DNA of 64,000 bases. It comes from an uncultured Caryophanales bacterium. Lineage in GTDB: Bacteria; Bacillota_I; Bacilli_A; RFN20; CAG-449. The DNA is taken from the NCBI GenBank assembly GCA_945873815.1, contig CAMCEE010000004.1, positions 62,001-126,000 on the forward strand. Direction: 5' to 3'. Below the pieces are notes generated by a model. The model did no database searches. It saw only the letters and a program-made list of their open reading frames with translations, and was not told where the DNA came from. Made by a program: the position numbers and the translations under genes. Each line of letters opens with the position of its first letter. Position 1 is the stretch's first letter. Positions 31,132 through 37,959 of this stretch are shown piece after piece.

Positions 31132-31863
31132 ATGAAAGCATTAAAAAAACTATTAAAGAACCATAAAAATATCATATTTCTCGATTTAGAAGGAACGCAA
31201 TTTTCTCATGAAATCATTGCAATTGGAGCGATCAAATGCCAAATCGATGAAAAAGGAATGATCATAGAAAAAAATAAATGTGAAACGATTAGATTATTTG
31301 TCAAATCGCTAGGTCAAATTGGAAAAGTAGTACAAAACATGACTCACATCGATGAAGAAATTTTAAAAAATGAAGGAATTTCATTAGAAGAAGCATTTGA
31401 TAAATTCAACAATTTCATCAACCTTCCATTAGATGAATGTTCTTTTATCGTGTTTGGTTCTAATGATTGTAAAATGATTCTTGATTCAATCACATATAGT
31501 AAACCTAATAATGAAGAAATTGGATTCTCAATAGTAAAAAACTCCATTGATTTCTTAATGTTCATCTCTCAATATGTTAAAGATGATAATGGTAATAACT
31601 ATTCTCTTGTTAACTACTTAAAAGTATTTGGAGTCGAGCCATATGGCATCAGTCACGATCCATTAAATGATTCGATTGACTTAATGAATCTTTACGATGC
31701 AGTAAATACAAAAAAAGATATTTTATTGAAAGAATATTTAAAAGTTCTTCAAAAGCAAAGGATTTTCCCTCAACCAGTAAAAGATGCAATAAACAGATTA
31801 TGTTCTGGAGATAATCTAACGAGTGATGACTTCATTTCCGATTGCAAGAGTTATTTAGAATAA
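31132..31863 (+). CDS. DEDDh-type 3'-5' exonuclease domain protein
   Basis: Probable RNA or DNA 3'-5' exonuclease of the DnaQ-like superfamily. FLDLEGTQ at about residues 16-23 gives the DxE motif I, FGSNDCKMI around 108-116 gives motif II, and HDPLNDSIDL around 182-191 gives the HxxxxD motif III. The 243 residues have a C-terminal extension of about 45 residues of unknown role. The general architecture resembles KapD-like and ERI-1-like exonucleases. The start follows TAGGAGATAAA. It is the first gene of a plus-strand run with recU and ponA, with recU beginning 42 bases after its stop; Bacillus lacks such a gene in this place. Confidence 0.8.
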   Translation: MKALKKLLKNHKNIIFLDLEGTQFSHEIIAIGAIKCQIDEKGMIIEKNKCETIRLFVKSLGQIGKVVQNMTHIDEEILKNEGISLEEAFDKFNNFINLPLDECSFIVFGSNDCKMILDSITYSKPNNEEIGFSIVKNSIDFLMFISQYVKDDNGNNYSLVNYLKVFGVEPYGISHDPLNDSIDLMNLYDAVNTKKDILLKEYLKVLQKQRIFPQPVKDAINRLCSGDNLTSDDFISDCKSYLE

Positions 31864-32505: not shown

Positions 32506-34804
32506 AATCATCAACACAATTATAATATCAATTTCTACAATAACGTTTCTGGCCACTATCATAGGCGGAGCGTTTTTTTATTTCGTTATTTCTGGAGCAA
32601 AAACAAAAGAGATAGAAGAAATCAAATATCCAAAATACACTATGATTTATGATTCTTCTTCCAATTTAATCGAAGAAATATCATCTTCTAAAATGGATTA
32701 TGTTAAATATAAAGATATCCCTTATCTATTAATAGAAGCGTTATTATCAATTGAAGATCAAGAATTCTTTTATCATAAGGGAATCAACGAAAAAAGAATA
32801 TTGACTTCACTAGTAAGTAACATATTTAATGAAAGCATTCAAGGAGCCTCAACAATAACTCAACAAATCGTGAAAAACACGATGCTAAGTTCAGAAAAAA
32901 CTTATGTCAGAAAAATTAAGGAAATATATTTATCTTATCTTTTAGAACAAAAACTAACAAAAGAAGAAATACTTGAATTATATTTTAATCACGTATATTT
33001 TGAAAAGTCATATCCAGGAATTGTATATGCGTCAAGAAGATTCTTTAATAAAGAACTAGATGAACTAAATCTATCTGAAATCGCTTTATTAGTCGGGAGT
33101 GTGAAATCACCTTCTCTATATTGTCCTCTAACTCATCCTGAAAACGCCTTTGAAAGAAGAAACATCGTTCTAAAAGAAATGATGAGAAATAAAGTAATCA
33201 CGGAAAAGCAATACGAAATAGTTTCAAAAATCCCCATTAAAGAATTAATAAACATTAAAGAACCAACGATAAGTTATAAATACCAAGCATATCTTGATGT
33301 AGTCTATCAAGAAGCTAATAAAATACTGAATGTAGATATTTTTTCTACTCCGTTAAAAATAGAAACATACTTAGATACCTCTTTACAAACATACTTAGAT
33401 TCAATTGAAGAAAATGATAATCCATATTTTGATGAATCAGTTCAAATTGCAACTGCTGTAATAAAAAATGAAGACTGTTCCATTCAAGGAATAATAGGAG
33501 GAAGAAAATATAAAGGGAAGAAAATGTACAATCGGGCATCATCTTTAAAAGCATCTCCCGCATCTTCCATTAAACCTATTTTTACTTATGCCTTAGGAGT
33601 TGAAAAACTCAATATGAATCAATTATCAACCTTTCTAGATGAAGAAACATTCTATCCAAATACGAATATCATCGTAAATAATGCTGATAAAACATATCGA
33701 GGACATTTATCATTAGTAGAATGTCTAGGTTATTCAAGAAATACTACAACAATATCACTTCTTGATAGATTAATAAAAAATTTCTCAAAAGAATACATAA
33801 TAGATTACCTTAAAGATATCGGCATCTTTGATAATGGTTCATTTACCTATTCATACGCTCTAGGAGGATTTACGTATGGTACAAATCCTATCGCGATGGG
33901 AGGAGCTTATTGTATGCTTGCTAATGGAGGAAATTACCTCTCTCCTTCAACAATAAAAAGAATCACATCATTAGACACCAATGAAATATTGTATGAAAGA
34001 AATATGGTAGGAAAAAGAATAATTTCTTCTAAAACAGCATCGATAATCACCGATTCATTAATAAGGGTAATAAATGGGAACTATTATGGAATAAAAGAAG
34101 CTAAACCCGAACAAATCGAGATTGCTGGAAAAACAGGAACTAATGCATACGATAAGGAAACGATTAAGAAATATTCATTACCTTCTAACGTTGACAAGGA
34201 TATCTGGTTTTGTGGATATTCTAGTGATTATACTATTGCTGCATGGGCTGGGTTTGATACAATTGATAAAACGAAAAAAACATACTTTTTTTATCAAGAT
34301 AAAAGAAAGAAAATTCCAAAATACTTATTCAAAAACATCATGAATTTTGTTGCAAATAAGAATAAAAAAATCAAAATAGATCCTTCCTTAAAAAAAATAT
34401 ACATAGTTAAACATCTAGATAAAATGTATTATCCTAACGAATATATTCCTTCTTCATATATCGATTACATATATGTGGATGGAAATGAAGAAATTAACGA
34501 ATTACCCCCTCTAAATCTTAATTCAATTGAGAAATGTAAAACATTAATATTAGAAAATGAAATCATGATATCACTAGATCACCAATTAATAAACGATGAT
34601 ATATACGTTCGAATATATGGTCAAAAATGCTATTTATATAAAATATATTACAAAAACAAACAAGAAGAAAAAACGACATTTTCTTCCTTTATATCGATCG
34701 ATACAAGTATAGAAATGCCGTATAAAATTGAAGTAAGAGAAGTTTTTTCAAACAATACATCTTTACAAAGTTTTCCTTTGGAAATCAATCTTTTCTCTTC
34801 TTAA
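32489..34804 (+). CDS. ponA: Class A penicillin-binding protein 1 (PonA)
   Basis: Main bifunctional wall synthase. The 771 residues from the ATG at 32489 (GAGGT eleven bases upstream) comprise a membrane anchor (about 8-30), a GT51 domain with EDQEFFYHKG and GASTITQQIVKN, then a transpeptidase domain with SSIK, SRN in place of the usual SxN and KTGTN. A C-terminal region of roughly 150 residues after the transpeptidase is beta-rich with many Tyr and Lys. It is cotranscribed with recU, as in Bacillus. Its 3' end overlaps the 3' end of nth by 20 bases. GpsB, encoded nearby, is the expected partner. Confidence 0.94.
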   Translation: MKKINKIINTIIISISTITFLATIIGGAFFYFVISGAKTKEIEEIKYPKYTMIYDSSSNLIEEISSSKMDYVKYKDIPYLLIEALLSIEDQEFFYHKGINEKRILTSLVSNIFNESIQGASTITQQIVKNTMLSSEKTYVRKIKEIYLSYLLEQKLTKEEILELYFNHVYFEKSYPGIVYASRRFFNKELDELNLSEIALLVGSVKSPSLYCPLTHPENAFERRNIVLKEMMRNKVITEKQYEIVSKIPIKELINIKEPTISYKYQAYLDVVYQEANKILNVDIFSTPLKIETYLDTSLQTYLDSIEENDNPYFDESVQIATAVIKNEDCSIQGIIGGRKYKGKKMYNRASSLKASPASSIKPIFTYALGVEKLNMNQLSTFLDEETFYPNTNIIVNNADKTYRGHLSLVECLGYSRNTTTISLLDRLIKNFSKEYIIDYLKDIGIFDNGSFTYSYALGGFTYGTNPIAMGGAYCMLANGGNYLSPSTIKRITSLDTNEILYERNMVGKRIISSKTASIITDSLIRVINGNYYGIKEAKPEQIEIAGKTGTNAYDKETIKKYSLPSNVDKDIWFCGYSSDYTIAAWAGFDTIDKTKKTYFFYQDKRKKIPKYLFKNIMNFVANKNKKIKIDPSLKKIYIVKHLDKMYYPNEYIPSSYIDYIYVDGNEEINELPPLNLNSIEKCKTLILENEIMISLDHQLINDDIYVRIYGQKCYLYKIYYKNKQEEKTTFSSFISIDTSIEMPYKIEVREVFSNNTSLQSFPLEINLFSS

Positions 34805-35426
34805 AGTATTTACATAAATCCTTAAGTTTACATTCACTACATAAAGGATTTTGGCTTTTGCAATACCTTCTTCCAAAGTGAATAAACTGATGATGTAAAT
34901 GAGGTAAATCGTTTTTATTAAAGTACTTATATATTTTTTGTTCCACTTCTAATACATTATCATTTTCTTTTGCAATACCAAGTCGTTTTGATACTCTTTC
35001 AACATGCGTATCTACTGCCATTACAGGTTTAGAATATAACTCAAGCAAACATACATTTGCTGTTTTTCTTCCTACTCCTGGTAGAGACATCAATTCTTCG
35101 CGCGTAAAAGGAACTTCTCCATTAAAACGTTCTAATAAATTTCTAGAAATAGATATAACGTTCTTTGCTTTTGAAGAAGCTAACCCAATCGATTTGATAA
35201 TCTCTTTAACATCATCTTCTGATGCATTGCTTAAATCATATAGCGAAGGATATTTATTAAATAACACCTTCGTTACATTGTTGACGCTTTTATCAGTCGT
35301 TTGAGCAGAAAGCATCACAGAAATAACTAATTCATACGGCTTTCTATAAATTAATTCACATTTTGCATCATATAGTATTTCATTAAAATAATCATTGATT
35401 ATTATTGCTTTTTCTTTATTATTCAT
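34785..35426 (-). CDS. nth: Endonuclease III
   Basis: Bifunctional DNA glycosylase and AP lyase for oxidised pyrimidines. The 213 residues match the family. The helix-hairpin-helix LPGVGRKTANV carries the catalytic Lys, and VDTHVERVSKRLG carries the catalytic Asp. The iron-sulfur cluster motif Cx6Cx2Cx5C is intact near the C-terminus (CKSQNPLCSECKLKDLC). I use the ATG at 35426, which overlaps dnaD by 8 bases; no strong ribosome-binding site precedes it. DnaD-Nth order is as in Bacillus. Confidence 0.95.
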   Translation of the reverse strand: MNNKEKAIIINDYFNEILYDAKCELIYRKPYELVISVMLSAQTTDKSVNNVTKVLFNKYPSLYDLSNASEDDVKEIIKSIGLASSKAKNVISISRNLLERFNGEVPFTREELMSLPGVGRKTANVCLLELYSKPVMAVDTHVERVSKRLGIAKENDNVLEVEQKIYKYFNKNDLPHLHHQFIHFGRRYCKSQNPLCSECKLKDLCKYFKKRKD

Positions 35427-36078
35427 CGGTCCATTTCGTATTAACAATATCTATTGCTGTTTCAATTTCTTGACGATATTTATCATTAATCGCAGAATAT
35501 CCTTCTTTTTTAACATCAGTAGAGGTCATCCTTTTGATAATGATTTTATCGATTTGTCTAAGTGTGACGTTTTTACTTTTTGATTTGCATTCATGGAGAG
35601 ATTCAATAATTGTTTCTTCTTTTATTCCAGTTCCAATCCATTCTCTAATTTTTTCAAGTTCAATTGGAGTTAATGATCGACCAATCTCTCTTTGAAATGT
35701 ACTAAAAATATTCGTTACTGCATCGTGCTTTTGCTTGTTTTCTTCAAGTGTTGAAGCAGTTATCAATTCCTTAACAAATGTTTCTCCTAGTCTTTTATAT
35801 AAAGGTTTAATCGATGTTAATAAGGATGTGGAATTTTCTCCAGTTGTAAATTCCAAATATCCTCTATTCATCAAACTAACTAGCATCTTATCGATATCTT
35901 TAACATCAAGATTCATCTTTAATGCGAGAATCTCTGCAGTAATCAGCGTCGGTTCTTCTTTTAAAATATTATCAACCACAAGTAAAATCGCTAAGTCATT
36001 TTCACTTAACCCTAATGATTTATAAGTATCGACTAATAAATAACGATAATCTATTTGATTGATTTTAAAATTTTCCAT
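35419..36078 (-). CDS. dnaD: DNA replication initiation protein DnaD
   Basis: Primosomal protein that with DnaB and DnaI loads the replicative helicase at oriC and stalled forks in Bacilli. The 219 residues show an N-terminal winged-helix part (DNILKEEPTLITAEILALKM) and a C-terminal DnaD domain (FSTFQREIGRSLTPIELEKIREWIG) with the YxxxIxxxW-like end (YRQEIETAIDIVNTKW). The start has GAGG. It follows the CCA/M19 fusion gene by 28 bases and overlaps nth. Presence of DnaD is another Bacilli marker. Confidence 0.92.
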   Translation of the reverse strand: MENFKINQIDYRYLLVDTYKSLGLSENDLAILLVVDNILKEEPTLITAEILALKMNLDVKDIDKMLVSLMNRGYLEFTTGENSTSLLTSIKPLYKRLGETFVKELITASTLEENKQKHDAVTNIFSTFQREIGRSLTPIELEKIREWIGTGIKEETIIESLHECKSKSKNVTLRQIDKIIIKRMTSTDVKKEGYSAINDKYRQEIETAIDIVNTKWTDE

Positions 36079-36106: not shown

Positions 36107-37765
36107 CTATTTACATACTCTTTTTAAGAGTCTCAAGAAATTCTTATAAAATATTTTCTCAATATCTTCTTTTAAAAACCCTTCATTATATAATGCTTCT
36201 TCAAGTAAATACATTTTACTTGCATCTTCTAATCCATTAGGTGTAGGTATTCCATCAAAATCAGTACCAAGTGCAATTATACCAGTTCCTGCAATTGATT
36301 TAATGTGCTTAATATGTTTCACGATATTTTCAATTTCCTTATCTTGATTTTCTAATGAAACAAAATCAGGACAAAAATTAATTCCAATTAATCCATGTCT
36401 TTCCTTGATTTTTAAAATCATATCATCAGTGAGGTTTCTTGAAACAGAACAAATGCTTCTTGCATTCGAATGCGAAGCAACAAGAGGAACGCTAGAATGT
36501 TCAATTACATCGTAGAAACCCTTATCAGATAGATGTGAAACGTCAATAATCATTCCTAATTGATTCATTTTCTTGACAACTTCTATTCCAAAAGGAGTTA
36601 ATCCATGTTTTTCATCCACGATTGATAAATCTCTTTTTGTTTTTGATTTACCGTATTCTAGATTTGGGTAACCAATCTCATTTGCATAATTCCAAGTTAA
36701 GGTCATCATCCTTACCCCTCTTTTATAAAAATGAGTAAGGTTATCTAACTTACCTTCCAATACTCCACCTTCTTCAATAGTTAATAAGGCAGCGATTTTG
36801 TGTTTTGAATATGCTTCCATCACTTCACGATAGTGTTTAACTGGAACAATAACATGTTTATTTAACATCATTTGCCTTTCGAATTCATCAATATATTCAT
36901 TTGCTCTTTCAAATGGTCTTCCTTGGCTGAGATTAACAAATACTGCAAAACATTGAAGCATATAATGTGACTTTGCCATTTTCTTAATATCAATGTGTAA
37001 ATCCTCATTATCATATATTCCATCATTCCTGACGCTTCTTCTTGTAATCGTATCACAATGCATATCGATAATAGGAATTCGATTGAATCCATAATCGATA
37101 GGAATATATGAATCTATTCCATAATCTTTTAAAAGTTCAATCGCTCTTAGATTGCTATAATCAATCATTTTCTTTATTTCATTTAGGCATTTTGCATAAT
37201 TCAATCTTTTCAATAAATACGCGTTTTCTCTAATAGAATTAATAAGGGATCTTTCAATTTTAAAGCCGAGAATCAAGCTGAAACGTAAAGCTCTTAATAT
37301 TCTTAATGGATCTTCTTTTATTCTTACATATGGATCTCCAATCATTCTAATCATTCCAGAACGAATATCATCCATTCCACGATAAAAATCAATGATTTCT
37401 CCTTTTTTATCTATATAAATAGAGTTTATTGTAAAATCTCTTCTTGGGGCGTCCTCAATTGGTTTTGAAACAAAGGAAATAGATGTTGGGTGGCGGAAAT
37501 CAAAATATTCACTCTCTTTTCTAAGGGTAGTTATATCAATTTTCTTCCCTTCAAAAAGAATGGTAGCTGAACCCATTTCTTTATATATTGTTTGAACATC
37601 AACAAAAGATTCAAACTCTTCGATCTTTGCATTTGTTACAAAATCATAATCAAAAAGAGGCTTACCTAAAATCATATCTCTTGATGTTCCGCCTACAATA
37701 TATAAATCAAATCCACGATTAGAAAACTCTTTTTCTAATTTTGTATAAATATCTATTAAACGCAT
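36107..37765 (-). CDS. Fusion of CCA-adding enzyme head/neck with M19 dipeptidase
   Basis: A single 552-residue frame joins two unrelated enzymes. Residues 1-220 match class II tRNA nucleotidyltransferases: VGGTSRD (24-30), the catalytic DYD (39-41), PRRDFTINS (107-115) and EDPLRILRALRF (151-162), then the neck. The body and tail domains that grip tRNA, about 180 residues in Bacillus Cca, are missing. Residues 229-552 form a complete membrane-dipeptidase (M19) barrel with HxD at 236-238, EE at 331-332, VSH at 409-411, ASH at 430-432 and GTDFDG at 500-505. M19 enzymes cleave dipeptides, often with a D-residue, using two zinc ions. It leads an operon with dnaD and nth. There is no signal peptide or membrane helix. 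What the two parts do together is unknown. Confidence 0.88.
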   Translation of the reverse strand: MRLIDIYTKLEKEFSNRGFDLYIVGGTSRDMILGKPLFDYDFVTNAKIEEFESFVDVQTIYKEMGSATILFEGKKIDITTLRKESEYFDFRHPTSISFVSKPIEDAPRRDFTINSIYIDKKGEIIDFYRGMDDIRSGMIRMIGDPYVRIKEDPLRILRALRFSLILGFKIERSLINSIRENAYLLKRLNYAKCLNEIKKMIDYSNLRAIELLKDYGIDSYIPIDYGFNRIPIIDMHCDTITRRSVRNDGIYDNEDLHIDIKKMAKSHYMLQCFAVFVNLSQGRPFERANEYIDEFERQMMLNKHVIVPVKHYREVMEAYSKHKIAALLTIEEGGVLEGKLDNLTHFYKRGVRMMTLTWNYANEIGYPNLEYGKSKTKRDLSIVDEKHGLTPFGIEVVKKMNQLGMIIDVSHLSDKGFYDVIEHSSVPLVASHSNARSICSVSRNLTDDMILKIKERHGLIGINFCPDFVSLENQDKEIENIVKHIKHIKSIAGTGIIALGTDFDGIPTPNGLEDASKMYLLEEALYNEGFLKEDIEKIFYKNFLRLLKRVCK

Positions 37766-37883: not shown

Positions 37884-37959
37884 GGGTATTTAGCTCAGCT
37901 GGGAGAGCATCTGTTTGACGTACAGAAGGTCGGCGGTTCGATCCCGTCAGTACCCACCA
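37884..37959 (+). tRNA. tRNA-Val (GAC)
   Basis: A complete cloverleaf of 76 bases: acceptor GGGTATT/AGTACCC (one G-U), D arm GCTC/GAGC, anticodon stem TCTGT/ACAGA with loop TTGACGT giving anticodon GAC, and T arm GGCGG/CCGTC with TTCGATC. The discriminator is A and CCA is encoded in the gene, so CCA addition is needed only for repair of this tRNA. It is transcribed away from the CCA/M19 fusion gene. Confidence 0.96.

Follow-up and report, generated by a model that had tools for sequence, protein, structure and literature searches.

How can a single gene encode the catalytic front half of a CCA-adding enzyme and a complete M19 dipeptidase, and what can such a nucleotidyltransferase (NTase) do when the domains that hold tRNA are missing? 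These questions are raised by one locus in the window, the 64,000-nucleotide stretch of DNA analysed here. The literature searched contained no account of an NTase-M19 fusion or of CCA enzymes lacking body and tail. The reading preferred here, with a probability of about two in three, is that the protein is a repair-only and probably A76-restoring NTase without tRNA-anchoring domains, joined to an M19 dipeptidase that is otherwise ordinary. What is mostly surprising is the absence of the tRNA-holding half, rather than the joining of M19.

Architecture and inheritance of the fusion gene

The gene is one open reading frame of 552 residues with an ATG start and no internal stops, as the initial annotation had described. 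The features of the locus are as follows.

36107..37765, minus strand: whole fusion gene (mini tRNA nucleotidyltransferase plus M19 dipeptidase), 552 residues
37100..37765, minus strand: class II NTase head and neck, residues 1–222, equal in extent to the order's stand-alone mini NTases
37676..37696, minus strand: start of motif A, VGGTSRD, residues 24–30 (invariant-column alignment)
37472..37522, minus strand: flexible loop region, residues 82–98, RKESEYFDFRHPTSISF, intact; deleted in CC-adding enzymes (PMC7014341)
37301..37315, minus strand: motif D, EDPLR, residues 151–155, amino-acid template (sequence and alignment)
37076..37099, minus strand: junction, residues 223–230, the few residues from the end of the mini NTase to the first M19 strand
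36110..37075, minus strand: complete M19 dipeptidase domain, residues 231–552 (Pfam and fold match)
37052..37060, minus strand: M19 ligands H236 and D238 (HCD; alignment)
36773..36775, minus strand: M19 bridging ligand E331 (alignment)
36533..36535, minus strand: M19 ligand H411 (alignment)
36470..36472, minus strand: M19 ligand H432 (alignment)
36251..36268, minus strand: M19 motif GTDFDG, residues 500–505 (alignment)
35419..36078, minus strand: dnaD, downstream neighbour of the mini NTase, conserved across the order
34785..35447, minus strand: nth (endonuclease III), conserved downstream neighbour
37884..37959, plus strand: tRNA-Val(gac) with encoded CCA, one of the 41 tRNA genes of the genome

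Pfam matches cover the NTase head (PolyA_pol, PF01743; residues 21–140, E 6.7e-30), weakly the RNA-binding neck (residues 167–217, 2e-4), and Peptidase_M19 (residues 229–548, 8.5e-93); body and tail domains are absent from the protein by the same search. The head carries the class II motifs GGxxRD, DxD, RRDFTxN and EDxxR, and the neck is seen as helices at residues 145–214 of the predicted model, where it matches the head-and-neck fold of CCA enzymes. The top NCBIfam match is CCA tRNA nucleotidyltransferase (3e-54), with residues 13–222 aligned to model positions 15–226 of 396; its score lies under the cut-off because the remainder of the model, the body and tail part, is absent. The profile of the bacterial poly(A) polymerase PcnB scores lower than the CCA model and far below its own cut-off (8e-36; 123.7 bits, cut-off 305.65). 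The second half contains the HxD, E, H and H ligands and the DFDG motif in a TIM-like barrel.

The AlphaFold2 model, for which the input was 13 fusion sequences, has a mean pLDDT of 92 and a pTM of 0.86. The best PDB folds found by Foldseek are the M19 dipeptidase Lmo2462 and the head and neck of Bacillus and Planococcus CCA enzymes, and none of the PDB entries among the matches listed spans both halves. Likewise, in a sequence search of solved structures, the second half was nearest to Listeria Lmo2462 and the first half to the CCA enzyme of Bacillus stearothermophilus. The class II CCA enzymes of B. stearothermophilus (1miv) and Planococcus halocryophilus (6ibp/6qy6) share head, neck, motifs A–D, the loop and the EDxxR template with the fusion protein, at about 32–36% identity and an rmsd of 1.6–2.4 over about 217–220 columns (1.6 over 220 for 1miv); however, they continue into a tRNA-anchoring body and tail, whereas the fusion protein continues from the neck into M19. 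With the M19 dipeptidases Lmo2462 (3lu2, 3neh) and Streptomyces Sco3058, the fusion protein shares every metal ligand and the complete barrel. Lmo2462 is the best fold match (31% identity, TM-score 0.90 by target), and its structure includes a phosphonate dipeptide mimic (PDB entry title). Known M19 dipeptidases are not joined to an NTase, whereas M19 here has no start of its own; separate translation from an internal start was ruled out, as no conserved in-frame start was found just ahead of the M19 motif.

The initial annotation had proposed a search for the same two-domain architecture elsewhere. The uninterrupted fusion was found in 15 of the 18 genomes of the family, distributed over three genera (all eight genomes of the window's genus, and four and three genomes of the two others), and was placed on trees; the other fusion proteins are 38–54% identical to that of the window. 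Of 564 relatives in public named genomes, the best 80 included four loci that match nearly the whole fusion protein. The genome that contains the window is a draft assembly (1.80 Mb, 39 contigs, 96.5% complete), which might favour an artefact of assembly or frameshift uniting adjacent genes, but the same unbroken fusion occurs in 15 genomes of three genera and such an artefact at the junction is therefore excluded. The fusion is real and inherited. The remaining genus of the family, g2 (three genomes, loci L072–L074), has an NTase of 325–328 residues with an unrelated C-terminus and no M19 attached. About 110 additional C-terminal residues in these g2 proteins gave no Pfam match.

The NTase motifs and M19 ligands named in the initial annotation are all present and are invariant in 13 aligned fusions: D39, D41, R108-R109-D110, N114 and E151-D152-P153-L154-R155 in the NTase half, and H236, D238, E331, H411, H432 and G500-x-D502-F503-D504-G505 in the M19 half. 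The loop residues R82, E84, Y87, D89 and R91-H92-P93 are likewise invariant. In close pairs, dN/dS is about 0.1–0.2 for the NTase and M19 halves alike, and both halves are under purifying selection.

Mini nucleotidyltransferases across the order

Elsewhere in the order, the NTase is usually a separate protein of 200–260 residues that ends at the point where M19 starts in the fusion. An order-wide survey covered 279 genomes, 265 of which gave an NTase match. Among the matches listed, proteins of 200–260 residues are the majority, and about 17 genomes have NTases of 385–511 residues other than the fusion; those of the longer proteins that were examined contain body and tail sequence. Mini and full-length NTases are nearly mutually exclusive among the surveyed genomes. 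A search of the 18 family genomes for body and tail domains found none, including as a separate gene in the window's genome.

In a tree of the NTase part, the short, fused and 328-residue forms make up one clade (support 100/99, stem 0.61), and the full-length enzymes fall outside it, grouped with the CCA enzymes of Bacillus and Planococcus. A 362-residue protein (L067) on a long branch falls inside the short and fused clade. The single clade indicates one early loss of body and tail, with M19 joining later; on this sequence evidence, the form lacking body and tail is order-wide and long predates the M19 fusion, a family-level event. The initial view that M19 had replaced body and tail was thus only partly right: both are absent here, but the loss is the older event, and across the order mini NTases normally stand alone with no M19.

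The common gene order is HU, NTase, dnaD and nth; recU and the gene of a penicillin-binding protein lie close by. The dnaD neighbourhood of the NTase is ancestral across the order, in agreement with the earlier remark that Bacillus keeps cca near dnaD.

The origin of the M19 half is less simple. In the M19 tree, two of the fusion genera join M19 proteins of Erysipelotrichaceae and the third joins those from another family of the order, which hints at two separate fusions as a possible history. A single M19 clade for all fusions is nevertheless compatible with the data (AU p 0.40 and 0.19), and the junction is nearly equal in length across all fusion genera.

tRNA genes and the probable role of the NTase half

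The fusion gene contains the sole PF01743 match in the window's genome. No second cca and no split body/tail gene was found in this 96.5%-complete assembly; this is what the initial annotation had suspected and had suggested searching for. All 41 tRNA genes of the genome encode CCA, therefore de novo CCA synthesis is unnecessary there, and the earlier suggestion of a repair enzyme kept beside CCA-encoding tRNA genes fits well.

CCA is encoded in the tRNA genes of every mini-only genome checked, with counts of 17/17, 14/14 and 16/16 (plus one gene truncated by a contig end) in three others. When T-arm patterns were counted in 46 genomes and the control was subtracted, CCA stood at 94% in 28 genomes with short or fused NTases versus 70% in 16 genomes with full-length NTases. 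The low count in mini-only genome G058 is accounted for by CCA-less pattern matches that are not tRNAs. The lowest values belong to G052, G067 and G041, all with full-length NTases, and to G065. CCA is missing from 13 of the 17 tRNA genes of G041, and follows just one of 31 T-arm pattern matches in G052 and one of 28 in G067; G028, also with a full-length NTase, is mixed. The genomes found to have CCA-less tRNA genes thus have either a full-length NTase or, in G065, a CC-type enzyme and a mini NTase.

In G065, all complete tRNA genes read lack CCA, and two NTases are present, one full-length and one mini. The full-length protein (405 residues, adjoining coaD; contig C74, L268 4198–5415) has a deleted flexible loop (VTCFRGLDKDRLEEDLKLRDF), and the mini NTase has an intact A-adding loop; the G065 assembly is 69% complete, and contig C74 is a putative part of it. 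The same pairing of a loop-deleted full-length enzyme (contig C32, L269 907–2211) and a mini NTase is found in G059. G065 and G059 therefore likely have a split CC/A system with an A-adding partner that lacks body and tail, a pairing in which A76 would come from the mini enzyme. CC-type pairing is not universal, since the partner of the mini NTase in G060 and G066 is a full-length enzyme with the loop. The mini NTase of G066 (L297 1489–2181), which shares its genome with that full-length CCA enzyme, has eroded motifs (VGSSLRD, RRDYTCD). The loop-deleted full-length second NTases of G074 and G077 were left out, as these assemblies are large and possibly contaminated. Second, weak PF01743 matches in genus g23 are sub-cut-off, several of them in frames of 1700–2400 residues, and are not such NTases. 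The second NTase of G197 (L242 1429–3183) is unlike the others of the order, with 584 residues and a long C-terminal extension.

The switch to ATP requires the flexible loop (RxExxYxDxRHP); without it A is no longer added, and its deletion is the hallmark of CC-adding enzymes in bacteria (PMC7014341). The loop is intact in the NTase half of the fusion, which rules out a CC-adding identity. Intact loop and EDxxR are also shared with the bacterial A-adding enzymes of Bacillus halodurans (BhaA) and Aquifex (AaL, 1vfg), and a further likeness is that in G065 a mini NTase coexists with a CC-type enzyme whose loop is deleted. The fusion has both loop and EDPLR; a CC-adding partner was seen in relatives (G065, G059) but not in the window's genome. 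However, known A-adding enzymes keep body and tail, and reject tRNAs without CC through this C-terminal part (PMC7014341), while the mini NTases have neither domain; A-only specificity is uncertain for this reason.

The NTase half (residues 1–222) belongs to an order-wide minimal class II family in which the catalytic head and the neck that selects the nucleotide were kept and body and tail were lost. It would mend worn tRNA 3′ ends instead of building CCA de novo. Work on tRNA 3′-end repair is argued by the exclusion between mini and full-length enzymes, the erosion of the G066 motifs and the encoded CCA. Repair would mostly consist of replacing the terminal A76, a preference we infer because the loop for the change from CTP to ATP is intact and a relative's mini NTase coexists with a loop-deleted CC-type enzyme.

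A real, though lesser, possibility is that the mini NTase adds the whole CCA with no preference for A, as a shortened all-purpose CCA repair enzyme. It is the sole NTase in most genomes, and loop-containing full-length CCA enzymes replace it in the lineages of G041, G042, G043, G052 and G067 and again in G156, G158, G159, G162 and G262, as expected if the two did equal jobs. On the other hand, the CCA-less G065 also has the loop-deleted CC-type enzyme, implying that the mini enzyme is not used for CC there, and none of the mini-only genomes checked turned out to have tRNA genes that lack CCA.

In published descriptions, class II CCA enzymes grip tRNA by body and tail, the domains that bind its acceptor and T helices (PMC3925840). 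In this group of gut and rumen bacteria, apparently no more than the catalytic front half of the tRNA-end enzyme has been kept. If many species do rely on head and neck, genomes whose tRNA genes encode CCA would have no need of body and tail, and the mini NTase would be a natural minimal enzyme for gauging how much CCA specificity resides within the catalytic core. The order offers natural contrasts for such a comparison, with genomes that have mini NTases only, full-length NTases only, or mini plus CC-type enzymes.

The M19 half and its relation to the NTase

A search of the window's genome with the M19 half of the fusion gave no match other than itself at an E-value of 1e-3. Every M19 ligand is kept in 14 of the 15 fusions. 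The exception is the G010 fusion (L018 1489–2994), in which HCD has become NCN and both histidines and the DFDG motif are gone; its NTase motifs are intact, and its predicted M19 barrel is retained (pLDDT 88). Dipeptidase activity therefore does not explain in all members why the fusion has been conserved. As judged from these ligands, dipeptidase chemistry appears to be usually retained, yet not required by the NTase.

In the preferred reading, the M19 half (residues 231–552) was tethered after the tail had been lost and probably cleaves small dipeptides, for example L-D dipeptides from wall turnover. The tether may simply co-express both activities or supply the mini enzyme with a bulky partner domain, so that M19 may be a bystander, presumably with no coupling between the halves.

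A mainly structural or RNA-holding role of the barrel, in place of the lost body and tail and with dipeptidase chemistry secondary, is doubtful. The barrel fold kept without ligands in G010 and the confident placement of both domains in the model (pTM 0.86) are consistent with such a role, but most mini enzymes of the order do without any partner domain, and all ligands are kept in the 14 other fusions.

The loss of the tRNA-anchoring domains could also mean that the mini NTase no longer acts on tRNA but extends other RNAs instead, perhaps as a poly(A) polymerase, and head and neck do resemble those of bacterial poly(A) polymerases, as the PcnB match indicates. This is unlikely, given that the top profile is the CCA enzyme and that the exclusion with full-length CCA enzymes, the decay in G066 and the link to CCA-encoding tRNA genes all point to tRNA.

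A coupling of the two halves at the tRNA 3′ end, with M19 removing an aminoacyl or dipeptidyl group (perhaps with a D-residue) and the NTase repairing the end, is quite improbable, and so is the combined scheme of an order-wide tail-less A76-restoring NTase that in one family became coupled to an M19 acting at that same end. The persistence of the fusion in 15 of 18 genomes would suit it, as would two fusions, possible from the position of one genus apart in the M19 tree. A precedent for extra domains exists in the long A-adding NTases (NF041569, 880 positions; a weak match), which likewise carry large additions, at the N-terminus, but keep body and tail. The added domains of the NF041569 family, which include a DHH hydrolase domain, differ from M19 and sit on the opposite end. 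Against coupling, ordinary dipeptidases have the same M19 ligands and fold, G010 has lost the ligands, a single fusion origin is compatible with the tree (AU p 0.19–0.40), and g2 of the same family has the NTase without M19.

A DEDDh exonuclease (PF00929, RNase_T family, 2.7e-6) adjoins recU near the mini NTase across the order. It lies at 31132–31863 on the plus strand of the window, and at L057 3047–3826, L058 362–1162 and L060 5192–5926 in relatives. RNase T of Escherichia coli trims tRNA CCA ends; by analogy, the exonuclease near recU could be a trimming partner of the repair NTase.
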